Both the position numbers and the translations under genes were made by a program. Below the pieces are notes generated by a model that was not told the origin of the DNA, did no database searches, and saw only the letters and a program-made list of their open reading frames with translations. Below are positions 4,642-29,072 of a stretch of 29,702 bases of DNA, piece by piece. Within the stretch, counting starts at the first letter, position 1. Every line of letters begins with the position of its first letter. Where the stretch lies: IMG/VR virus record IMGVR_UViG_3300030419_001062, positions 1 to 29,702 of that record; one strand, 5' to 3'. Origin of the DNA: a virus.

Positions 4642-5871
4642 ATGGCTTGGAAAAGAATATTAACTACCGATGATACATCATCAGGTCCACCAGGTCCTAC
4701 TGGTTCAGCAGGTCCCACAGGTCCTACAGGTCCAACCGGTCCCACAGGTCCAACTGGTCCTACTGGCTCAACTGGTTCCGCTGGTCCCACAGGTCCAGCA
4801 GGTCCAGCAGGTGCAGACGGAGATGATGGCTCAGATGGAGCAACAGGTCCTACTGGTCCTACAGGTCCACAAGGTCCAGCAGGTCCACAAGGTTCTACCG
4901 GTCCTACTGGTCCAAGTGGTTCTAACGGCTCTAATGGCTCAGATGGTGCTGATGGTGCTGATGGTGCAACTTGGCATTTTAGTTCATCGGCAGGTGCTCC
5001 ATCTGCTCCCACGGGGAAAAATGGAGACTTTGCGTATCATTCAGGTACAGAAAAAATTTATTACAAAGATAGTGGAAGTTGGAGTGAAAAATCTGATTTA
5101 ACTGGTTCTACAGGTCCTACAGGTGCTACGGGACCTACAGGTTCAACAGGACCTACAGGACCAGCAGGACCACCTGGACCAGACGGACCAACAGGACCAG
5201 ACGGACCAACAGGACCAACAGGACCAACAGGTTCAACTGGAGGAACTGGTCCGACTGGACCAACGGGACCTGCAGGTGCTGATGGTGATGATGGTGACGA
5301 TGGTGCTACGGGACCTACAGGTCCAACGGGACCACAAGGAGCAACAGGACCTACAGGACCTAGTGGAAGCAACGGTTCAAATGGTTCAGATGGAGCAGAT
5401 GGAGCAGACGGTGCTACATGGCATTTCTCAACTAGTGTAAGTGCTCCTTCAGCCCCTACAGGAAAGAATGGCGATTTCGCATACCACTCAAGTACTGAAA
5501 AGATTTACTATAAAGCGAGTGGCAGTTGGTCTGAGAAATCAGATTTAACTGGCTCAACTGGACCTACAGGACCTACAGGACCTGCCGGTGCAGACGGTTC
5601 AGATGGTGGAACAGGACCTACTGGACCCGCAGGACCACAAGGACCAGCAGGACCACAAGGACCATCAGGACCCGCAGGTGGAACTGGACCTACAGGACCT
5701 ACTGGACCTACTGGACCCGCAGGACCACAAGGACCGACTGGAAGTGCAGGTACAGGGCTAGGTCATGCCACTAACGATATAATAAGTAGTGGAGAATTTA
5801 AAATTCATGTCGATACAGACGCACCTGGGTCAAGTGATGGTTCTGATGGCGATATTTGGTTTCAATACTAA
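4642..5871 (+). CDS. Collagen-like (Gly-X-Y) fibre protein
   Basis: Encodes 409 residues starting [11 protein letters not shown]. Three Gly-X-Y tracts (about residues 14-108, 154-257 and 303-371) are dominated by GPT and GPA triplets with some GPQ, GSN and GAD. They alternate with two copies of a ~50-residue non-collagen module (ATWHF...GSWSEKSD). The C-terminus (about 372-409) is non-repetitive ([19 protein letters not shown]) and may nucleate trimers. Such tracts form triple-helical rods in phage and bacterial surface proteins, so this is probably a fibre shaft. Pro is mostly at X and Thr/Ala at Y. Glycine codons are mainly GGT up to about 5125 and mainly GGA after it. The prolyl-hydroxylase-like gene three genes downstream may modify it. 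Confidence 0.9.
4966..5124 (+). repeat. Non-collagen module, copy 1
   Basis: A 53-codon block inside the collagen-like gene, starting [20 protein letters not shown], separating Gly-X-Y tracts 1 and 2. It differs from copy 2 at five residues only (hand alignment), but most synonymous positions differ. It looks like a small beta domain ([17 protein letters not shown]) that punctuates the rod. Confidence 0.85.
5413..5571 (+). repeat. Non-collagen module, copy 2
   Basis: The second copy of the 53-codon block, starting [20 protein letters not shown], separating Gly-X-Y tracts 2 and 3. Of 48 residues identical to copy 1, I count about 31 written with a different codon. At least three are serines that swap between AGT and TCN codons. 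Confidence 0.85.
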
Positions 5872-6833: not shown

Positions 6834-7080
6834 ACATACTAGAAAGTGGCTTGTTGTCACTAGAGAAGAATATGATAATCTTGTTATCGATTGGGATTCA
6901 ATAAAGGAGACTGATGCTAATCATGTTAGATGGAATAATGATGAAAGCGAATGTATATTGGCATATAATGGTGCCAAACCTTCCTTTCTATCAAATATTA
7001 CTGGTGTTATTAATCACGGTGAAGTTTTAGAATTACTACTTACGTCTGATTGGGTAAGCCCTGACGAAGATGAAATATAG
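6823..7080 (+). CDS. Small acidic protein of unknown function, fibre region
   Basis: Encodes 85 residues from a TTG at 6823, overlapping the end of the LamG gene by 11 bases; its own stop overlaps the oxygenase start by 11 bases. The sequence (RKWLVVTREEYDNL, later NHGEVLELLLTSDW) is compact, Asp/Glu/Trp-rich and probably globular, without membrane segment or cysteine cluster. Overlap on both sides suggests translation coupled with the LamG and oxygenase genes. No family is recognised with confidence. Confidence 0.6.
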   Translation: MDTKHTRKWLVVTREEYDNLVIDWDSIKETDANHVRWNNDESECILAYNGAKPSFLSNITGVINHGEVLELLLTSDWVSPDEDEI

Positions 7081-7630
7081 AATATTAAAAGATTCAGTTC
7101 TTCAAAATTGGTATTTAGTTGGTGATTTTCTTAGTGATGATGAAATCAACTTAATAAATAATATTGTTCGAGATACTGACTATACTACTGGTAATATTAT
7201 CGGGGGGAATCCTGATGGTTATAGAAATAGCCAGATCAAATGGATTCCATTCGATAATGAATGGTTATATGATAGGATATGGGATTGGGCTAATGTTGCT
7301 AATAATGATTTGTGGAATTTTGATATTGAAGGATTTAAAGACCAAACGCAATATACATCATACGATGCACCAGCAGGTCATTATGATTGGCATTTAGATA
7401 TTTTAGGTGATGACATCAATCATAGAAAAATTAGTTTAGTATGCCCATTAAATGATGGGTATGAAGGTGGTAAACTGCAATTTAAGTTCGGTAAAGATTA
7501 TCAAGAGATAAATCTTTTAAAGGGACAAGCAGTATTTTTTCCTTCGTTTTATTTACATAGAGTAACACCTGTTACTAAAGGTAACAGAAAAAGTTTAGTT
7601 CAATGGGTTTCAGGAGACCCTTATAGATGA
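7070..7630 (+). CDS. 2-oxoglutarate/Fe(II)-dependent oxygenase, prolyl 4-hydroxylase (P4Hc/PKHD) type
   Basis: Encodes 186 residues, the normal size for a single-domain P4Hc enzyme. The double-stranded beta-helix landmarks are present. The HxD iron motif is H108-L-D110 in AGHYDWHLDI; R119 and the ISLVCPLN strand follow; YEGGKLQF is the usual Y-x-GG-x-L-x-F; KGQAVFFPSF precedes the distal iron ligand H163 in YLHRVTPV; R173 in GNRKSLVQW is the expected 2-oxoglutarate carboxylate ligand. The family hydroxylates proline or other residues using O2, Fe(II) and 2-oxoglutarate. The gene is co-transcribed with the collagen-like fibre gene, making it the nearest obvious candidate substrate. Other substrates are possible because such oxygenases are widespread in marine phages. 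Confidence 0.88.
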   Translation: MKYRILKDSVLQNWYLVGDFLSDDEINLINNIVRDTDYTTGNIIGGNPDGYRNSQIKWIPFDNEWLYDRIWDWANVANNDLWNFDIEGFKDQTQYTSYDAPAGHYDWHLDILGDDINHRKISLVCPLNDGYEGGKLQFKFGKDYQEINLLKGQAVFFPSFYLHRVTPVTKGNRKSLVQWVSGDPYR

Positions 7631-7758: not shown

Positions 7759-8057
7759 GTGAAGGTAAACCTAAGACGGCAAGGTCGTATCGTGGGTCTG
7801 TCGTGGATGATAATGCCATCATTAGTATTAATATTAAGTGGCTTATTCAAATGTGTGTACTTGTTGCTGGACTTGTTTATTCGTACTATCAAGTTATCCA
7901 GAGGATTAGTGACCTTGAACGAGGAATGGTCGATGCTAATACCACAATTACAGAACTTGTCCAAAAGCATATAGCAGAAGAAGAAGAACGCTATGCTGAA
8001 ATGGAAGAAGACTTGAAATGGTATCAAAAAGCACTAGGAAAAAAGAAGAAGAGGTAA
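7755..8057 (+). CDS. Single-TM protein with coiled coil; inner-spanin-like or holin-accessory candidate
   Basis: Encodes 100 residues from a GTG overlapping the lipoprotein's TGA; the longer open frame back to 7719 lies inside that gene and is less likely. A polar N-terminus (residues 1-28) is followed by one membrane segment at about 29-47 (WLIQMCVLVAGLVYSYYQV). A long charged coiled coil (about 48-95: ISDLERGMVDANTT, then EEEERYAEMEEDL) and a KKKKR tail complete it. A membrane anchor plus coiled coil is the architecture of inner spanins, and the neighbour is a lipoprotein. But spanin pairs usually have the lipoprotein second, so the assignment is tentative. Confidence 0.7.
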   Translation: MSEGKPKTARSYRGSVVDDNAIISINIKWLIQMCVLVAGLVYSYYQVIQRISDLERGMVDANTTITELVQKHIAEEEERYAEMEEDLKWYQKALGKKKKR

Positions 8058-8060
8058 AAA

Positions 8061-8381
8061 TTGGAAGAATTTCTAGCACTATACAGCGAAGCGGGTATGA
8101 TAGGTGTCGTAGGGGCTATGTTTATGTTTATGGTCTACTCTATGAACAAACGAGGAAATGAACAAGCAGAAGCATTACAGAATTTAAAAATAGAAAATAA
8201 AGGACAAAGTGAAACGCTTGAAAATATGGAAGGAATGGTTATCAAACTTATTGGGAGATGGAATCAGTCAGATGATAAATTGGACCGAAAGTTTGATGCA
8301 CTCAATAAAGAAATTAATGACTTGGATAACCAAGTATCTGAAATCAAAGGCTCAATGAGCAGAATAAATGGAAGTAAATAA
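8061..8381 (+). CDS. Holin-like membrane protein with coiled-coil tail (TTG start)
   Basis: Encodes 106 residues from a TTG four bases after the previous stop, with AAGAGG upstream. There is a short N-terminus, then one hydrophobic segment at about 11-28 (AGMIGVVGAMFMFMVYSM). A long polar coiled coil follows (LKIENKGQSETLENM, then LNKEINDLDNQVSEIKGSM). The layout resembles small one-TM phage membrane proteins near endolysins. It may be a holin or holin regulator acting in the inner membrane with the M15 peptidase three genes downstream. The sequence alone does not separate holin from another phage membrane protein. Confidence 0.65.
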   Translation: MEEFLALYSEAGMIGVVGAMFMFMVYSMNKRGNEQAEALQNLKIENKGQSETLENMEGMVIKLIGRWNQSDDKLDRKFDALNKEINDLDNQVSEIKGSMSRINGSK

Positions 8382-8527
8382 TGGATAGCATAAAAGTTAC
8401 ATCAGTATCATTTGCCAATTATGGCGTTTATTTAGCAGAGTTTAATTTATTTCTGCAATGTATCGTTGCAGTAATGAGTATTGTTTATCTTGGTCATAAA
8501 ATAGTTAAAATAAAAAAGGAGGTCTAA
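8381..8527 (+). CDS. 48-residue single-TM protein, holin candidate
   Basis: A short gene between the coiled-coil membrane protein and the 75-residue gene. ATG at 8381 overlaps the previous TAA (TAATG); stop TAA at 8525-8527. The product begins MDSIKVTSVSFANYG, has one membrane segment at about 19-38 (LFLQCIVAVMSIVYLG) and ends in a basic tail (KIVKIKKEV). Size, one TM and a cationic C-terminus fit a small holin. The strong ribosome binding site of the next gene lies inside its last codons. It has no recognisable domain; holin is inferred from the lysis context. Confidence 0.6.
   Translation: MDSIKVTSVSFANYGVYLAEFNLFLQCIVAVMSIVYLGHKIVKIKKEV
8516..8523 (+). promoter_or_regulatory. Strong ribosome binding site (AAGGAGGT)
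   Basis: A near-perfect Shine-Dalgarno, AAGGAGGT, seven bases before the ATG at 8531. Most genes in this operon rely on stop/start overlap with weak sites, so this is among the strongest initiation signals in the window. It predicts high expression of the 75-residue protein. Confidence 0.7.
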
Positions 8528-8530
8528 ATA

Positions 8531-8758
8531 ATGGACTTAAAAAAGATGCTATTAGAATTAGCACAAGCACAAGCAGATAAAATGCAAGAAGAAGCAGTAG
8601 GGTGGCTAGGCTCTGATGAGTTTGCAGACCAGATTGCTACTAAAATCAATGAAAAGATTGATATTCCATTTGTATCTGAAGAGAAAGAACAAATCTTTTT
8701 TGAAAGAGTTGTTGACATTGTAACTGATTTACTAGAAGGTGTATTTAAGGGGAAATAA
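8531..8758 (+). CDS. Small acidic helical protein in lysis cassette
   Basis: Encodes 75 residues behind the strong AAGGAGGT site. All helical by eye: MDLKKMLLELAQAQADKM, then ATKINEKIDIPFVSEEKE, then ERVVDIVTDLLEGVF. Acidic overall, with no membrane segment or Cys. The last helix is amphipathic, so it could lie on a membrane or pair with a holin. It may act as an antiholin-like or accessory lysis factor, but only the neighbourhood supports that. It ends one base before the next gene. Confidence 0.6.
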   Translation: MDLKKMLLELAQAQADKMQEEAVGWLGSDEFADQIATKINEKIDIPFVSEEKEQIFFERVVDIVTDLLEGVFKGK

Positions 8759-8759
8759 A

Positions 8760-8960
8760 ATGTTATCAATATTATTAACAGTAATGCTTATGGATGCAGA
8801 TAGTGTAAAAGTAAAACCAACTATTCATCCTACATATAATGTAATGGCTTTAAATACTGAAGATATTAAAAAGAAAAAGAAGAAGAAAGGTAAGAAACTA
8901 GGCGAGAAAGGCAAGAAGAAGAAAAAAGGTTTTTGGTCTAAAATGTTTGGAGCCAAGTAA
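8760..8960 (+). CDS. Lysine-rich cationic small protein
   Basis: Encodes 66 residues from the ATG at 8760 (GGGGAAATAAA upstream); an earlier TTG at 8739 would sit inside the previous gene. A short hydrophobic N-terminus (MLSILLTVMLMDAD), a neutral middle (about 15-37), then a C-terminal half dominated by lysine with blocks of seven and five consecutive Lys, ending FWSKMFGAK. Highly cationic small proteins in lysis loci include disruptins, which act on the outer membrane. A DNA- or LPS-binding role is also possible. The stop overlaps the endolysin start (TAATG), so both are made together. Confidence 0.65.
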   Translation: MLSILLTVMLMDADSVKVKPTIHPTYNVMALNTEDIKKKKKKKGKKLGEKGKKKKKGFWSKMFGAK

Positions 8961-9337
8961 TGCCTAAATTCGGAAAAAGAAGTAAAGAACGTCTTAAAGG
9001 CGTTGATGCTAGACTTGTAAATGTTCTTAATGAATTAATTAAAATAATGGATGTAACTATCATTGAAGGATTGCGTTCAGAAGAAAGACAGAAAGAGTTA
9101 TTGGCTAAAGGTGCTACGAAAGTAAAATATTCTAAACATATGGAAGGGAAAGCAGTTGACCTTGCACCATATCCTATTGATTGGAAGAATAGAGATGGAT
9201 TTCATTATATGGGTGGAATGATTCGTGGTATTGGTCACCAACTCGGCATTAATGTTCGTTGGGGTGGAGACTGGGATTCTGATGGAGATGTTAAAGATAA
9301 TGGTTTTGATGATTTAGTTCATGTGGAGATAAAGTAA
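8960..9337 (+). CDS. Peptidase M15-type endolysin (D-Ala-D-Ala / L-Ala-D-Glu peptidase family)
   Basis: Encodes 125 residues, a single catalytic domain. Zinc-binding motif SKHMEGKAVDL gives H60 and D67; the third ligand and catalytic acid are in DLVHVEI near the C-terminus (D118, H121). EGLRSEERQKELLAKG (about residues 36-51) is the conserved helix before the active site, and RWGGDWDSDG (about 100-109) is the usual W-G-G-D-W loop. This matches the VanY/T5-endolysin type of peptidoglycan peptidase. No signal peptide is visible, so export would depend on a holin; holin-like genes lie immediately upstream. ATG overlaps the previous stop. It probably cuts the peptide stem at lysis, although a virion role cannot be ruled out. 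Confidence 0.9.
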   Translation: MPKFGKRSKERLKGVDARLVNVLNELIKIMDVTIIEGLRSEERQKELLAKGATKVKYSKHMEGKAVDLAPYPIDWKNRDGFHYMGGMIRGIGHQLGINVRWGGDWDSDGDVKDNGFDDLVHVEIK

Positions 9338-11092
9338 TTGCCAGGTAAACATTATAAAAAGTATTCTTATGGAGGTCCTATTTTAGGACCTTCACACGAG
9401 GAGGGTGGCGTTATGATACCCGTTAAGAATGGAAAACATCCAATTATAGAAGCAGAAGGTGGTGAATTCATTGTAAGTAAAGATGCTATGGAAAAACACG
9501 GTGATAAAATTGTTGCTCTAAATGCAGATGGTAATGATGCTCCTTTATTAGAGGGCTACTATCAATCCGGTGGTCCTCTAATTCAACAAGAGAATATTGT
9601 AGATGTTCCACCAGAAGTATTGAGCAATGATTCAGCAACATGGATTAGAGATGCTGTTCAAAAATATATACCTAGTGATGACCCAAACGATACTGAAGCA
9701 TTAATTAATTTTGGTGAAGCGATATTACCTACTAGGCTACCTACGATGGATGATTTCAGAGCAATATGGAATAGTGATAATCCTGCTCAAGAATTGTTTA
9801 ACTTTAGTTTAATGCTTGGGCTTACTAAAAAATTCCCAAAAAAGAAACCAAAAGGGAAAGCAACTGGATATGATACAGATATAACTCCTGAAAAAATTCA
9901 AAGAGATGTAAAACATCAAGTAAAGAAAGCAGATAATGCTAGAAAAGCAGGTATTGTTCCTATTCTTAAAGGTGGTAGAGAAGGAAAAGGACTTGATGAG
10001 ACTAAAGCAAGAACTAAAACATCATTAGGTGGTGAAAGAGAAAAGTATGATTTGCAAGGTCAAAGTTATGCAGAGTGGCAATTCAATCAAAAACAATGGG
10101 GTTTATCTGGTGATGGATTCATTATAAATAGCCCTGGTAGTACTTTTAATGGATGGTCTGCACAGAGATTAAATAATGGGAATTATAAGTTTTTTGATAG
10201 AAATGGTAAAGAAGTAAAAAATCCATTGAGTATGGATGAAATTGATAAATTAGATTTAAAGGGTCAAAGAAGCATGGACTCACATAATTACGCTGATATA
10301 AAAGAATTATTAAGGAAAGAAGGTATTCCTGATGATGACATTGTATATAGAATAAGAGTTGATAAGCCAGATAAAACTGGTAAAGAAATGAAAATGGTTA
10401 ATGAAGAAGTTTTTAATGCATATACAGAATCAAAAATAATAGAAAGTTCTATTGTAGCAAGGCACGGTCCAGAGGCAATGAAAAAGCCAGGTATTATTCC
10501 TGCTGTTGGACAAAAGTTTAAAATGATGCCAAGAGAAAAAGGTGGATTGCATGAAAATGGTGGTAGAATATATGAAATTATGGTAGATAATAAACCTGTA
10601 TATGTTCAGTCTAATAGAATCGCAGGTATAAGTGGTGGTTCAAAAAGAGGGTGGTTTATAGTTGATGAAAAAGAACTAGCAAACCCAGGTGCTCCAAGAG
10701 TAAATGATGTTAATAGCCCTAAATATTTAGGTGTTAATAAAAAAGAAGTTAGAAGAACTTTACAGTCAGGTGAAAACCCTCAACAAAGACATAATAGGAA
10801 GGTTCAGCAAAATATAGAACAACAACCAAAAGAGGTAAAGACAGAATTTTCTGAGTCTAGTGGTGATTTAATGCAATATAAAACTGAAGATAGAGGTGAC
10901 CCAGCAAGATTATTAGCAAGGTTGCAGAAAGAGAAAAAGGCAGAAGCACAATCTTTAGCAAAATGGAATAAGAAATATAGTAAAGCAAAACAATCAGGTA
11001 AAGTTCCTCAAGGTATGACAAGAAAAGAATGGATAGAAACACAACAGTATGTTGAGATAATTAAACAAAAGATGAAAGACCAAGGAGAATAA
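9338..11092 (+). CDS. Virion structural protein with N-terminal Gly-Gly motif
   Basis: Encodes 584 residues from a TTG directly after the endolysin stop (TAATTG). Residues 11-66 hold a motif seen in large phage structural proteins: YGGPILGPSHEEGGVMIPV, then IIEAEGGEFIVSKDAM and HGDKIVALNADG. A second Gly-rich segment is at about residues 395-440 (EKGGLHENGGRIYE, then GISGGSKRGWFIV). The rest is charged and mostly helical, with a Lys-rich stretch at about 165-175 (KKFPKKKPKGK) and a helical C-terminus (ARLQKEKKAEAQSLAKW). No catalytic site is visible. Size and place between lysis and tail-hub genes suggest an internal or tail-associated protein. The motif may mark a processing or partner-binding site, which is speculation. 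Confidence 0.7.
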   Translation: MPGKHYKKYSYGGPILGPSHEEGGVMIPVKNGKHPIIEAEGGEFIVSKDAMEKHGDKIVALNADGNDAPLLEGYYQSGGPLIQQENIVDVPPEVLSNDSATWIRDAVQKYIPSDDPNDTEALINFGEAILPTRLPTMDDFRAIWNSDNPAQELFNFSLMLGLTKKFPKKKPKGKATGYDTDITPEKIQRDVKHQVKKADNARKAGIVPILKGGREGKGLDETKARTKTSLGGEREKYDLQGQSYAEWQFNQKQWGLSGDGFIINSPGSTFNGWSAQRLNNGNYKFFDRNGKEVKNPLSMDEIDKLDLKGQRSMDSHNYADIKELLRKEGIPDDDIVYRIRVDKPDKTGKEMKMVNEEVFNAYTESKIIESSIVARHGPEAMKKPGIIPAVGQKFKMMPREKGGLHENGGRIYEIMVDNKPVYVQSNRIAGISGGSKRGWFIVDEKELANPGAPRVNDVNSPKYLGVNKKEVRRTLQSGENPQQRHNRKVQQNIEQQPKEVKTEFSESSGDLMQYKTEDRGDPARLLARLQKEKKAEAQSLAKWNKKYSKAKQSGKVPQGMTRKEWIETQQYVEIIKQKMKDQGE

Positions 11093-11093
11093 A

Positions 11094-12803
11094 ATGGCTT
11101 GGAAAAATGTTAAACAAACCCCAAAATATTATAATGGTGGTGTAATCCAACAACAGGCTAATACAAGTGTTTGGGGTGGAATATCAAATGCAGGTGATGC
11201 AATAGCAGATGTTGTTGCACATCATTATCGTTCACAAAAACCTCCTGTTACAGCAGAATATGGTATGTATATACCTCAAGCACGTCAAGGTGCACCTGTC
11301 CAACAAGCAAGTAGTAATCCTTGGAACTTTGCAAACATTGATTCTCCTTCAATGTCTGATTATGTTAGGCAATATGGCAAAGGATTAGATAGAAAAAGCG
11401 ATGATGATAAAAGAGGCTTTTGGGATATGATGATTACAGATAATATCATCGGTGGTCTTTATGGTGCAGGTAAATCAGTTTATGATAAAGGCAAACTAAG
11501 AAAACAAGCAAAGAAATCTGCTATTACAGAAGGTGATGCACACACACAAGAAATGCTACTTAAAGAAAAAGGCGTGACAGATTCTAATTATGATGCATTA
11601 AATCAAATTGTAAATGATAGAAAAAGAGACAGATTTCATAGACTTAAACAACAAGAACTAGACAGAGATATGAAAGGTGCTATGAATAGAATGAAATACG
11701 AAGCAAAGAAAAGGGTTGATAACCCATTCGTTCCAGCAGAAGGTGATTTAGATGAGATTAAATTTAATCCTGTTCAAATGGATGTTAATGAGAATATACA
11801 GGACGTATTAGATAGCAGACCTAAGAAAAGAACAGGTTCTGATAAACTTGAGGATTGGATTTATGATAAAGTAGATTCATGGAAAGATAAGAGATGGCAA
11901 AAGAAGAATCTTAAAGAAGGCTCTGGTAATGCTAGAACAGATTTATTATCAATGCTTAAAAATGAAAGACCAACTAGCAATCTAGAATGGAGTCATCAAG
12001 GAGATATAGAAGGCGATGATTTTAAATTTGATTATAATTTAAACAAAGGTGTTTCAGACAATCTTGATTTTGTAGGTAAAAAAGCAGGGCTAGAAGAAAA
12101 GCAAAGACTAACTAGGTTAAAAGAAGGTTTTGGTGGTCATATTTCAGATGTGTGGCGAGAGTTTGGAATGCTAGATGAGGATAAATTAAAATCAAATATA
12201 CAAGGGGCACCAACTCAATTAAGAAGAGAATCAAGTGATTTTTCAACTTCCAATATAAAGCCTGTAGGGATTAGTGAAGAAGATTTCCAATTTCAGGTAG
12301 AACATGGTGATGATATTAGAAATGTTAAAGCATTAGAAGCACAAGCATTGCAAAAGCAAAAAGAGAGTGATAAAGCACGTGATAATGTAATGCGAATGAA
12401 TATAGATGCTCCTAATAAATTAAGAAGTGCTACTAATAATATTAAGCCTAATATGACAACATTACCAGTCAGACCTGTCCCTGGTCGAAATGTTGCACCA
12501 ACTCCTTATGGTGAACGTGATATTACAAAGCCAAGTTGGTTACACCCTGAAGGTGGCATGGTTAGAGAATATGAAACTGGTGGATATTTATCACCAAGAC
12601 GACCTCCTAGTTATGCACATGGTGGGAATGTTGCTCAAGTAGGTGCGAATAATCAAGCAATGAATACAAAACTACTTGAAGGGCAACAAAATACACAAGG
12701 ATATATAACAAATGATAGCATTAGGCAAGGTAGAATGAGAAAATTTATTGCAGAATTAAATAATCAAAGTCCTATGTTTATAGATACAATACTAAGAAGA
12801 TAA
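11094..12803 (+). CDS. Putative virion structural protein (MAWK N-terminus, Gly-Gly C-terminus)
   Basis: Encodes 569 residues; ATG preceded by AAGGAG. Starts MAWKNVKQTPKYYNGG, sharing MAWK with the two fibre proteins. Residues 20-110 are Gln/Pro/Ala-rich; the centre is long, charged and helical (DRDMKGAMNRMKYEAKKR). The C-terminal ~90 residues bring a Gly-Gly pattern (HPEGGMVREYETGGYLSP, then AHGGNVAQVGANNQAMNT) similar in flavour to the start of the previous gene's product, and then TKLLEGQQNTQGYITND. No TM segment or enzyme motif. It probably forms part of the tail or internal core with its neighbour. Two adjacent genes carrying related Gly-Gly motifs may act as a pair. Confidence 0.65.
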   Translation: MAWKNVKQTPKYYNGGVIQQQANTSVWGGISNAGDAIADVVAHHYRSQKPPVTAEYGMYIPQARQGAPVQQASSNPWNFANIDSPSMSDYVRQYGKGLDRKSDDDKRGFWDMMITDNIIGGLYGAGKSVYDKGKLRKQAKKSAITEGDAHTQEMLLKEKGVTDSNYDALNQIVNDRKRDRFHRLKQQELDRDMKGAMNRMKYEAKKRVDNPFVPAEGDLDEIKFNPVQMDVNENIQDVLDSRPKKRTGSDKLEDWIYDKVDSWKDKRWQKKNLKEGSGNARTDLLSMLKNERPTSNLEWSHQGDIEGDDFKFDYNLNKGVSDNLDFVGKKAGLEEKQRLTRLKEGFGGHISDVWREFGMLDEDKLKSNIQGAPTQLRRESSDFSTSNIKPVGISEEDFQFQVEHGDDIRNVKALEAQALQKQKESDKARDNVMRMNIDAPNKLRSATNNIKPNMTTLPVRPVPGRNVAPTPYGERDITKPSWLHPEGGMVREYETGGYLSPRRPPSYAHGGNVAQVGANNQAMNTKLLEGQQNTQGYITNDSIRQGRMRKFIAELNNQSPMFIDTILRR

Positions 12804-16138: not shown

Positions 16139-17302
16139 ATGAGTATGGAATTATTAGGAGGTGGTGCATATATGGCAGGAAAACCTTTATTAGAAGATTC
16201 ACTAGCAAATATAAACCAAGACTTTACATACAATGTGCCTGCGGCACAATTTGGTCAACATGACAGTATGTCGGCTAATATGCTAGGCTTACAAAGTTTT
16301 GCTGGTCAGATGGGTGGCAGAGGAAATGAAATGTTTGGAATGGCACAAGGGTTATTTTCAGGAGACAGCCCTTATCTACAAGCAGAAAGAGAAAGACTTC
16401 TTCAAGGTGTAGATGACACAACAAGAATGCAAATGCGTAATATCGGTACTGCATTAAGTTCTAGAGGTATGGGTCAAGGTGGTTTAAGTCAAATCTTAGG
16501 TGAGGCAACTGGGAATAGAGCAAATGAGCAAGTTAGGCAAGGCAACATGGATATACTTGGAAAAGGATTCCAAGCAGGTACTCAAATGATGGGAATGGCT
16601 AATCAAGCATATGGAACACAAGGACAAGCATTAGGTCAAGCAGGTTCGCTTTCATTAGGGTTAACAGACCAGATGAATCAAATGAGTATGCAATCAGAAA
16701 GACTCGGTCATCAACAAAGACAATATGAATTAACATCTGCATATAACCAACAACTTTCTAATAGAGAAAATAAAGCAGGATTTTTAAGTAATATCATCGG
16801 CTCTGGTGCGAGTATAGCATCTGCTAAAATTATGTTTGGCTGTATCCCAGAAGGGACATCAATAGATACTCCAGATGGAGATGGTTTTAATACTATAGAA
16901 AATATAAAGGTAGGAGATAAGGTAATAGGTTATAATGGTAAACCAGTAAAGGTTCTACAAAAACATTCCTACCTAGAGAATAAAGAGGAACTTAGGTTTT
17001 ATTCTATTAAGTTTAAAGATTCAGATGGTAAAGAAAGTGAAGTCAATGTTTCTGATTCGCATAGAGTACGAGGTGTCTGTGCTAAAAATATAACTCATGC
17101 AGATATAACATCTAAGGAAGTTTACAAAGGTGTAGAACGCAGTTATGATTTATTAACTGAAGATAAAGGTTATCAAATAGACGGAATCCCTGTTAATAGC
17201 ATGATAGAAGAAATGGCTCATTCAGTACAAAATCCAAGTTTGTTAAAGGATTGGGATTTGAATTGGACAACAAGAGAAACAAAAATCACATATATAGACT
17301 AG
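16139..17302 (+). CDS. Internal virion (ejection) protein with C-terminal Hint domain
   Basis: Encodes 387 residues. Residues 1-230 are Gly/Gln/Met/Ala-rich and helical (LLQGVDDTTRMQMRNIGTAL; GSLSLGLTDQMNQMSMQSER), with a hydrophobic Gly/Ala segment at 215-231, similar in character to small podovirus ejection proteins (T7 gp14 position). Residues 235 to about 354 fit a Hint fold: C235 in CIPEGTSIDTPDG, ENIKVGDKVIGYNGKPV, block-B-like VNVSDSHRV with H308, and GVERSYDLLTEDKGYQIDG. After the Hint region only ~33 residues remain. The usual terminal His-Asn of inteins is absent (GIPVNSM), so full splicing is unlikely; thioester-driven cleavage after G234 is possible. Start at 16139 uses AGAGGA; ATG at 16172, behind GGAGGT, is an alternative. 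Confidence 0.75.
   Translation: MSMELLGGGAYMAGKPLLEDSLANINQDFTYNVPAAQFGQHDSMSANMLGLQSFAGQMGGRGNEMFGMAQGLFSGDSPYLQAERERLLQGVDDTTRMQMRNIGTALSSRGMGQGGLSQILGEATGNRANEQVRQGNMDILGKGFQAGTQMMGMANQAYGTQGQALGQAGSLSLGLTDQMNQMSMQSERLGHQQRQYELTSAYNQQLSNRENKAGFLSNIIGSGASIASAKIMFGCIPEGTSIDTPDGDGFNTIENIKVGDKVIGYNGKPVKVLQKHSYLENKEELRFYSIKFKDSDGKESEVNVSDSHRVRGVCAKNITHADITSKEVYKGVERSYDLLTEDKGYQIDGIPVNSMIEEMAHSVQNPSLLKDWDLNWTTRETKITYID
16841..17200 (+). other. Hint (Hedgehog/intein) domain, about residues 235-354
   Basis: Block A begins at C235 (CIPEGTSIDTPDG) and continues through NTIENIKVGDKVIGY. The block-B-like motif is VNVSDSHRV with H308. The terminal strand is RSYDLLTEDKGYQIDGIPVN. No homing-endonuclease insertion is present, as the gap between A and B blocks is only about 60 residues. 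The terminal His-Asn pair is not conserved. Confidence 0.75.
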
Positions 17303-26689: not shown

Positions 26690-27025
26690 CTATAGACATT
26701 TCTTACAGATTTTTTCGGTCTTACCCATTTTTGGAAAATCATCATAGAAGTTCACTCTCGTTATTTTGTCGCAAGAAATATTCTGACCTTTTAACTGTCT
26801 TTGTTTCCAACCTTCGTGTACCCATTCCCAACAAGTATCACATTTTGGACATAGATATATAAATCCATCAGCGTTTTTCTGATAGTTAGTATCTTTACGT
26901 ACTGTAGTTGGTTTGTTGATTCCTAGCATAATATCTCCAAGTATGCTATCTGAACTCTTCAACAGTTTGAGCCATTCCTTGCCATACATGGTCTCAGGTC
27001 TTGGTCTTTGATATTTTTTACTCAC
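26690..27025 (-). CDS. Small zinc-ribbon protein (GTG start)
   Basis: Encodes 111 residues from a GTG at 27025, overlapping the previous gene by eight bases. Cysteines C59-x-x-C62 in YLCPKC and C107-x-x-C110 in KICKKC make a four-Cys zinc-ribbon pattern, with C65 and C85 in between. The N-terminal half has SSDSILGDIMLGIN and positively charged residues that could contact DNA. It lies in the nuclease/methyltransferase block, so nucleic-acid binding or a small regulatory or recombination role is possible. Exact function unknown. Confidence 0.65.
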   Translation of the reverse strand: MSKKYQRPRPETMYGKEWLKLLKSSDSILGDIMLGINKPTTVRKDTNYQKNADGFIYLCPKCDTCWEWVHEGWKQRQLKGQNISCDKITRVNFYDDFPKMGKTEKICKKCL

Positions 27026-27397: not shown

Positions 27398-27691
27398 TTA
27401 TTCATTTGAAACCTCTTCCAGCGTTCCCTCGCCTTTCGGGTCATTGGGCAACACCTTTTTCTTTTTCATTTTATGCCCTTCCTTTTTATAAGTATTTCTT
27501 AACACTCTTACTAATTTTCTTAGTTTATGCATTGGTGTTTCTATTAAAGCATCAAATCCACAGATTTCTCTCTTAATTTCAAGAGTCTGTTCAATTCCCA
27601 TATGATATTGGGCAAGTGCGTAGGACCTAATAAGGTCCCAACGCACTTCCATTTCGGGTTTCTTAGAAAGGGACATCCGAGTCTTTTTCAT
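27398..27691 (-). CDS. Small basic helical protein, unknown function
   Basis: The longest form is 97 residues, overlapping the SSB-tail gene upstream by 29 bases. In-frame ATGs at 27676 and 27652 are alternatives, and the last removes the overlap; no candidate has a clear Shine-Dalgarno. The core is helical (VRWDLIRSYALAQYHMGIEQ, then HKLRKLVRVLRNTYKK) with a basic patch, and the C-terminus is polar. No family is recognised. It lies between two genes of the DNA-metabolism block, so an accessory role there is plausible. Confidence 0.5.
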   Translation of the reverse strand: MKKTRMSLSKKPEMEVRWDLIRSYALAQYHMGIEQTLEIKREICGFDALIETPMHKLRKLVRVLRNTYKKEGHKMKKKKVLPNDPKGEGTLEEVSNE

Positions 27692-27908
27692 CGACTTTTG
27701 CTTCCTTCTCCTTCACCTCATCACCCATCCTAAGTGAGAGATATTTAATCCCACTCTTGGATGTGTTCTGCCATGCGGCTAACTCGTAGTCAACCCCGTC
27801 CACATTAACAGAGCCAACAAAGTCAGGTCTTCTTTCGTTATCTTCCTTAAAACGATTACGAAAAAGAACACCTTTCCCTGGCTCATTTTGGTATTGTTTG
27901 TCACTCAT
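27663..27908 (-). CDS. Small protein with SSB-like C-terminal tip
   Basis: Encodes 81 residues; ATG overlaps the methyltransferase stop (ATGA). The N-terminal ~58 residues read as a small beta fold (KGVLFRNRFKEDNERR, then VGSVNVDGVDYELAAW, then GIKYLSLRMGD). It finishes with an acidic tail ending DSDVPF. Bacterial SSB proteins end in D-D-D-I-P-F, the tip that docks DNA-repair partners, and this end is a close match. The beta body could be a minimal single-strand-binding or partner-docking domain; a resemblance to DUF736-like proteins is possible. Likely in replication or repair. OB-fold identity is not proven. Confidence 0.65.
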   Translation of the reverse strand: MSDKQYQNEPGKGVLFRNRFKEDNERRPDFVGSVNVDGVDYELAAWQNTSKSGIKYLSLRMGDEVKEKEAKVDEKDSDVPF

Positions 27909-28948
27909 ATGAATAACTCCTTTTGTTTTAAACTCTGTCTGTTATTAATAACTGCGACATACTCAGGATTGAGTTCTATTCCTGTGTAATGTCGACCACA
28001 TCTCTTGGCAACTTTAGCAGTAGTTCCGGACCCCATAAAGATGTCCATAACTATGCATGGTTCTACTGTGTCGTCACAAGTACAAGTTGCAACCCAATTT
28101 GTAGTTCTGTATTTCTGACCTGAGAAATTCAAGGGTTTTACACCTCTAAAACCAGTATCCATAAAATCATCTTTATCGCCATATCCATCACCTCTTACTG
28201 CTTTGTATTCTTCGGTCAATTCTTTTTCTCTAACGTAGGGGGCACCACATTGACTACAACATCCATGTTGCGATGTCCCTGCTTGAATCATTGGAATAAT
28301 AAGTTCCTCAGGGAATGTTGCAAAGTGGGCACCTGCATAATGTGCAGATGGATACCTCCAGACATCACGTTTATTGGAACCAGATTTTTCTCTGATAGGT
28401 TCAGCATCAAAGAAATAATCTCTTTGTTTGCTAAACATAAAAACGTATTCATGTGCTTTTGTACATCTATCTGTTACAGATTCGGGCATAGGGTTGGTTT
28501 TTGCCCATATAATATCTGAACGAAGTATCCACCCACGATTTTGACATTCTAATGCTAATCTCCAAGGCACTCCTGCTAGGTCTTTTTCTTGCAAACCTTC
28601 AGGCATTCTTCTAAACACTCCTTCTCGTTCTTCTCCCATACCTGCTCTACCCTTAGACGTTCTGCTCATATTCCCAACATAACTATCGCCTATGTTGAGC
28701 CAAAATGTGCCGTCATCTCTTAGAACACGCTTGGCTTGGTCGAAAATGTCACACAAGGAGGAAATGTAATCATTTAGGGATTCTTCCAAGCCAACTTGTC
28801 CAGCGTGTCCATAGTCCCGTAAGCCCCAATATGGAGGACTTGTAATTATTTGATGAACGCTCTTATCTGGGAATAGTTTTAGTTTCTTAGCAGAGTCACC
28901 TTCAATGATATTATCTACGTAATCAGACTTTTCCATTAGTAATAACAT
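27905..28948 (-). CDS. Site-specific DNA methyltransferase (SPPY-type, m6A or m4C)
   Basis: Encodes 347 residues from the ATG at 28948, behind AAAGGA with eight-base spacing; an ATG at 28936 and a longer frame to 28984 are possible but lack that site. Catalytic motif IV TSPPYWGLRDY is at about 36-46; SAM-binding motif I (DIFMGSGTT, about 302-310) comes after it, followed by YTGIELNPEYV. That is the beta-class order. S-P-P-Y is shared by N4-cytosine and some N6-adenine enzymes, so the base is unresolved. An insert with CCSQCGAPY and later CTC looks like a small zinc ribbon. No adjacent restriction enzyme is obvious, so it is probably an orphan methylase for host mimicry or regulation. Confidence 0.85.
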   Translation of the reverse strand: MLLLMEKSDYVDNIIEGDSAKKLKLFPDKSVHQIITSPPYWGLRDYGHAGQVGLEESLNDYISSLCDIFDQAKRVLRDDGTFWLNIGDSYVGNMSRTSKGRAGMGEEREGVFRRMPEGLQEKDLAGVPWRLALECQNRGWILRSDIIWAKTNPMPESVTDRCTKAHEYVFMFSKQRDYFFDAEPIREKSGSNKRDVWRYPSAHYAGAHFATFPEELIIPMIQAGTSQHGCCSQCGAPYVREKELTEEYKAVRGDGYGDKDDFMDTGFRGVKPLNFSGQKYRTTNWVATCTCDDTVEPCIVMDIFMGSGTTAKVAKRCGRHYTGIELNPEYVAVINNRQSLKQKELFI

Positions 28949-29072
28949 CAATCCAGTCCTTTGCAAATGACAGTAACATTCCAAATATTAAAAATGCTAT
29001 AGCATATGATAAAAAACCTAATCCTAGAAGTAGAAAATTTAATACCCACTCCCATAAGTTAATGATAATCAT
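28923..29072 (-). CDS. Small membrane protein (49 aa)
   Basis: Start taken as the ATG at 29072, which has GGAAGGAG five bases upstream and sits one base after the previous gene's TAG. The open frame extends further up with a run of Arg/Lys, but that stretch overlaps the previous gene. The product begins MIIINLWEWV and is hydrophobic for most of its length (LLLGLGFLSYAIAFLIFGML), with a short polar end. One or two TM segments. It overlaps the methyltransferase start by 26 bases. An inner-membrane protein of unknown function. Confidence 0.6.
   Translation of the reverse strand: MIIINLWEWVLNFLLLGLGFLSYAIAFLIFGMLLSFAKDWIDVITNGKV

Follow-up and report, generated by a model that had tools for sequence, protein, structure and literature searches.

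A small SSB-like phage protein with a conserved SSB-Ct-like tip, encoded in a recombination and replication module

The window analyzed here, a stretch of 29,702 nucleotides, comprises positions 1 to 29,702 of the IMG/VR virus record IMGVR_UViG_3300030419_001062, which has a length of 53,047 bases. Its minus strand carries a short gene whose product ends in a motif resembling the C-terminal tip of bacterial single-stranded DNA (ssDNA)-binding protein (SSB). The gene and the features around it are listed below.

27663..27908, minus strand: gene of the SSB-like protein (phrog_7364/phrog_18154 family), 81 amino acids, ATG start; from the ORF list and profile matches, with the same module in five related phages
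27663..27683, minus strand: SSB-Ct-like tip DSDVPF and stop codon; from the ORF translation and family counts
27717..27872, minus strand: predicted four-stranded beta body, residues 13-64; from AlphaFold2 models and an 80-member alignment
27917..27921, minus strand: AGGAG, Shine-Dalgarno-like, 8 nt 5' of the ATG; read from the sequence
27905..28984, minus strand: DNA methylase (N6_N4_Mtase, E 9e-44), which neighbors the SSB-like gene also in the relative L406
29265..29594, minus strand: RusA-like Holliday junction resolvase (phrog_244, E 7.4e-7), upstream of the SSB-like gene and common to the relatives
27398..27691, minus strand: 97-aa ORF with no function assigned, sharing 29 nt with the 3' end of the SSB-like gene
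26690..27025, minus strand: 111-aa Cys-containing ORF with no function assigned, third gene after the SSB-like gene

A preliminary description of this DNA had proposed a small protein at 27663-27908, and the 81-residue minus-strand ORF, which has a good ribosome-binding site and ends in DSDVPF, bears this out. Its ATG overlaps the stop codon of the DNA methylase gene by 4 nt (27905-27908). We regard the ORF as a real gene because five phages related to the window phage have also retained it within the same module; in these phages, relatives of the 111-aa Cys-containing ORF are the first or second gene after it. The C terminus of the protein reads KDSDVPF. The tail had been called acidic, which is fair, although residues 65-81 of the window copy carry only a mild net charge of -2; across the family, the last 12 residues have a median charge of -3. 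The net charge of the body is near zero and not strongly basic (-1 in the window copy, with a family median of +1). No RNA family was found in the window, its promoter-like and terminator-like counts were at shuffle level, and repeats around the gene were not informative.

Two other regions of the window deserve mention. A collagen-like protein with long G-P-T repeats is encoded at 4642-5871 (plus strand), a few genes before 7070-7630 (plus strand), whose product resembles a 2-oxoglutarate/iron prolyl hydroxylase; the phage might hydroxylate its own collagen-like fiber. The second half (from about CIPEGTSIDTPDG) of a virion-region protein encoded at 16139-17302 (plus strand) resembles a Hint (intein/hedgehog) domain.

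The family of the SSB-like protein is already known, as PHROGs and GenBank both carry an SSB label for it, and the window protein adds a member. It matched phrog_7364 (E 5.8e-10) and phrog_18154 (E 5.5e-9) over its body, both of them labeled "single strand DNA binding protein" in PHROGs, and among 80 diverse aligned members all 80 matched phrog_18154 and 79 matched phrog_7364. By tblastn, the family was present in 30 of 50,697 phage records, mostly under an SSB annotation, and three overlapping searches returned more than 500 related stretches each, counts that are lower bounds. Used as a single query, the window protein retrieved no relative in the viral-contig scan and no match in the PDB sequence search; NCBIfam held no family for it. 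Up to E 1 it matched neither the bacterial SSB profile (PF00436), nor the DUF669/HK620-type SSB profile (PF05037), nor the T7 gp2.5-type and DUF2815 SSB profiles of Pfam. DUF736 (PF05284) scored 13.4 bits against the window protein, below the gathering cut-off of 22.1; 26 of 47 family members matched it at E <= 0.1, and 9 of 80 did so at E <= 0.01, the lowest value being 4.9e-5. Of two family profiles compared with the PDB, A1 touched solved SSBs at the tail only (E 0.058 and 0.083), next to unrelated rows, and A5 yielded chance-level rows only up to E 10 (best 0.18, short stretches), toxin B-subunit chains among them. Because profile A1 reached solved bacterial SSBs only via the tail, some of the SSB names in databases may rest on the tip. 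No published experiment on the family was found in the literature searched, where most subscription papers lie outside coverage. Weak matches to one family member were also found in 5 plasmid records. On a Caballeronia plasmid, a protein annotated as DUF736 (L349:3797-4294) resembles the family body.

Conservation of the tip was assessed in members selected by a profile of the body only, built on residues 1-65 of the window protein and the corresponding alignment columns in related copies, which gave 337 complete members, 257 of them distinct. PF ends 230 of these 257 and F or W ends 248, counts that may run high because the locus ranking used tip-containing queries and one search pattern lay within the tip; the remaining nine keep an acidic IPF or VPF ahead of a short extension. 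Homologues without the acidic tail were sought among the 257 distinct members and none was found, and the acidic SSB-like tip first noticed in the window copy is present there as DSDVPF. In a less biased set, 14 copies from named phages (of 30 records) whose match stops by query residue 61, 13 end in PF, the exception being phiVC8, in which DDDIPF is followed by a 14-residue extension. Among 80 aligned members, P80 occurs in 76 rows and F81 in 77. As a background, only 1 of 923 other ORFs in 67 family loci ends in PF and none of the 923 in [DE]x(0-2)PF; the PF tip of the family is beyond chance. One member (L063:4001-4447) has an Arg/Asp/Gly-rich linker of ~80 residues between the body and a DDEIPF tip, while the linkers of most others are short.

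So conserved a tip on so small a protein could belong to a decoy, that is, a free tip carrier that titrates the host partners of SSB and blocks repair or defense. Against this stands the constraint on the body, not on the tip alone: G32, G38, and W46 are invariant in the 80 aligned members.

The beta-like body of the preliminary description was recovered in two AlphaFold2 models, which place strands at residues 13-17, 30-36, 39-49, and 55-64 ahead of a disordered tail. The models, built from 47 and 80 rows, have a pTM of 0.47 and 0.51, and residues 11-60 of the second average a pLDDT of about 85; they share the query and overlapping rows and are therefore not independent. At the confidence of the two models (mean pLDDT 68.2 and 73.5), neither Foldseek nor VIA-align found a clear match to an OB fold or to any other solved structure. 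The best Foldseek E values were 0.31 and 0.50, and the SSB chains in the top 50 (2fxq, 7f5z, and 8uzt for the first model, 2fxq and 7f5z for the second) were weak matches of 33-55 columns at E 2.2 to 3.1. A comparison with BFVD gave 13 rows at E <= 0.001, the named ones being uncharacterized phage proteins, and an SSB of Vibrio phage JSF9 at E 1.5e-3. There was no SSB chain among the 50 VIA-align entries shown, an absence that excludes nothing. The entries for the first model include 3nm7_A (Z 4.0, rmsd 3.9, 53 aligned) and 4bg7_B (Z 3.7, rmsd 4.4, 55 aligned), and those for the second include 3nm7_C (Z 3.1, rmsd 4.7, 59 aligned). Nine and eight of the 50 shown entries for the two models, respectively, are in our assumption PUR-alpha, PC4/Sub1, MRP-type, or AcrIIA22 sheets, with Z scores of 2.7 to 4.0 that tie with unrelated proteins (DDB1, nucleoporins). 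The ssDNA-binding sheets of PC4/Sub1 and PUR-alpha are antiparallel and four-stranded, as predicted for the window protein; with Z <= 4.0 and no C-terminal helix predicted, "works like" would be the most that this comparison could mean, not membership. We treat the PC4/PUR-like resemblance of the predicted body as a weak lead, with no fold assignment. Vibrio phages VP2, H1, and phiVC8 have two bodies in one chain, an arrangement that would fit a dimer.

The small, near-neutral body and its failure to match an OB fold would also suit an adaptor, whose body binds the annealase, DnaB, or DNA polymerase (or DNA weakly) and whose tip hooks that protein to tip-reading enzymes, with no coating of ssDNA. 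Speaking against an adaptor, the conserved W46, Y41, and F/Y56, together with the glycines, would suit a nucleic-acid-binding sheet.

The gene neighborhood bears on both of these alternatives. The SSB-like gene lies in a minus-strand block that begins beyond the window with the following genes, given in coordinates of the whole record.

33503-34222, minus strand: PD-(D/E)XK nuclease
32232-32849, minus strand: annealase candidate, 205 aa
31724-32242 (L016:2022-2540), minus strand: 172-aa protein
30215-31558, minus strand: DnaB

Inside the window, the block continues with the RusA-like resolvase, small ORFs, the methylase, and the SSB-like protein. Five relatives (G045-G049) have the same module order, namely nuclease, annealase candidate, 172-aa protein, DnaB, RusA, (methylase), and SSB-like protein; their SSB-like copies are 39-48% identical and end in DVPF, DLPF, DVPF, DVPF, and NVPF. 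The copy at L350 has a seemingly shorter N terminus and retains DVPF. Across the family, 80 IMG/VR loci were taken, 79 were read (L018 is open at the contig end), and the target ORF was picked in 67. An Erf-type annealase cluster, named by profile from one member (an Erf-like ssDNA annealing protein, phrog_155, E 1e-19), lies one or two genes upstream in 58 of these 67. Other nearby clusters, each named from a single representative, are MazG-like (32 loci), DnaB-like helicase (15), and RecE-like exonuclease (8). Of 14 stretches from named phages, 12 have a DNA polymerase or an annealase (Erf or Sak) adjacent to the gene or one gene off. The context of the family is a recombination and replication module.

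At locus L016, an AAA_5 ATPase gene (8055-9065, minus strand) and then a gene at 9062-11236 (minus strand) were noted; the latter looks VWA-like, and the arrangement resembles pairs of the CobS/CobT-like or MoxR-VWA kind. The second gene also has relatives in L351-L354.

A PF00436 search of the window phage's own record gave no match, and canonical SSB was likewise found in 0 of 55 records bearing the family (11 named phages and 44 IMG/VR contigs, hand-picked, mostly longer contigs, and not random), in a search whose control was detected in 10 of 14 genomes. This suggests replacement of SSB and argues against a decoy, as does the position of the gene in the phage's own recombination and replication module; we consider a decoy very improbable. 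The preliminary description had offered "SSB-like or decoy": the very small SSB-like protein is supported by the profile match, the tail conservation, the recombination context, and the exclusion with canonical SSB, while for a decoy titrating host repair only the tip speaks, and the context fits it poorly. The 0 of 55 count, together with the position of most family members right after an annealase, weighs against an adaptor as well.

A better test of exclusion was provided by 52 loci with relatives of the window phage's annealase candidate, for which PF00436 was checked in 50 records. Among these 50, PF00436 was found in 35, the SSB-like family in 6, both in none, and neither in 9, including four short fragments (10 to 14 kb). 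The SSB-like family occurs in 6 of the 52 loci (6 of 19 and 0 of 33), all six within the 50 records. The ORF next after the annealase starts like a canonical SSB in 24 of 29 loci (of the 52); 23 of these 24 ORFs start at or <=11 nt before the annealase stop and one starts 120 nt after it, and they end in IPF or TPF (20), IGF (1), or QF (3). The probability of zero overlap between PF00436 and the SSB-like family is 3e-4 if the records are treated as independent; because the two states track two sets of related phages and are not 50 independent events, we give this probability no weight and read the exclusion simply as a consistent pattern of replacement. One record with this annealase family (L391, record G060) has neither canonical SSB nor the SSB-like family; a 173-aa open frame in it ends in DNDIPF and is maybe another tip carrier.

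The 205-aa annealase candidate itself is above the cut-off of no Pfam family; its best PHROGs family is labeled exonuclease, and a profile comparison with Erf-type proteins gave no alignment. The top PDB match of its profile was human Rad52, at a weak E of 0.11, and the protein may be Rad52-like. In the group of the window phage the annealase candidate is directly followed by the 172-aa protein, except in L351, where two small ORFs separate them. The 172-aa protein has no convincing Pfam match. Two of six members of its family match phrog_378, another SSB family, weakly (best E 0.011), and the window copy has no phrog_378 match. Because of these weakly matching relatives, the window phage may own two ssDNA-binding proteins, the 172-aa protein being a possible second one in the slot of canonical SSB; this is our chief reservation about the preferred reading given below.

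A separate candidate of this kind adjoins the annealase candidate, both in the window phage and in related phages, and would leave the small protein free to act as an adaptor, a reading that we still judge improbable given the points above. A division of labor is somewhat easier to imagine, in which the window phage relies mainly on the 172-aa protein as its SSB and the small protein supplies the missing tip. The 172-aa protein ends without a tip and occupies the slot held by canonical SSB in related modules, and two of its relatives have the phrog_378 matches; these are weak, however, and lacking for the window copy, as is a convincing Pfam match, so we hold this division of labor to be rather unlikely. 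It overlaps our preferred explanation, since binding to ssDNA or to the main SSB would still be expected of the small protein, so the likelihoods given here need not add up to certainty.

Several known proteins can be compared with the window protein. The "SSB" of Vibrio phages VP2, VP5, and phiVC8 has the same body and tip, with 41-47% identity over 51-61 residues; VP2-type copies have two tandem bodies where the window copy has one, and the window copy follows the methylase, unlike the Vibrio-type placement right after Erf or before the DNA polymerase. Bacterial SSB (PF00436), a homotetramer that wraps ssDNA, shares the acidic PF-ending tip and is present in related annealase modules without the SSB-like family; the body of the window protein is too short for the usual OB domain, with four strands and no OB helix predicted. 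DUF736 shows weak similarity to the family in the body, and DUF736 proteins are not known to carry a tip of this kind. The HK620 SSB (DUF669), described as a 21.3-kDa monomer that recruits the annealase Sak4, likewise has a PF-ending tip (NDYPPF), while the window protein has 81 residues and no DUF669 match; the last six residues of the HK620 protein are needed for the binding of Sak4 to SSB-covered ssDNA and for Sak4 stimulation (PMC5928155). Two other precedents were set aside: the SSB of phage 5A from the work on Hna is described as gp2.5-like (PMC13381803), and the Enc34 SSB is of the DUF2815 type (PMC5686142).

We conclude that the gene probably encodes a minimal ssDNA-binding protein that uses its SSB-Ct-like tip to recruit partners and stands in for canonical SSB, a conclusion drawn from sequence comparisons. 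The protein would consist of a body, a flexible linker, and the SSB-Ct-like tip. It would coat ssDNA arising from phage replication and recombination, and would take the place of the canonical SSB encoded by related annealase modules. RecO, PriA, Exo I, and primase are host partners of the SSB tip. The tip would recruit such readers of bacterial SSB tips, that is, the phage annealase and/or host RecO, PriA, Exo I, and primase, a step suggested by the tip itself, the HK620 SSB-Sak4 precedent, and the gene neighborhood. RecT-type annealases are stated to recognize the C-terminal seven residues of host SSBs (PMC10711431). A broader and more tentative proposal, to which we give less than an even chance, is that the family is a widespread phage ssDNA-binding protein with a non-OB, minimal four-stranded sheet, possibly a PC4/PUR-like dimer, that acquired its SSB-Ct tip independently and is thereby able to take over from SSB as the hub that recruits partners in annealase modules.

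Since the family is large, one biochemical result would annotate many genes. Its relatives on plasmids possibly point to a broader function. A link has been reported between the SSB C terminus and annealase activity in foreign hosts (PMC10711431), and for this reason small tip-carrying SSBs together with their own annealases could aid recombineering. If the preferred reading is true, annealase-based recombination in these phages runs with a protein of about half the usual size, and the SSB-Ct tip would be a portable recruiting code, carried by proteins that are possibly unrelated in fold to SSB.
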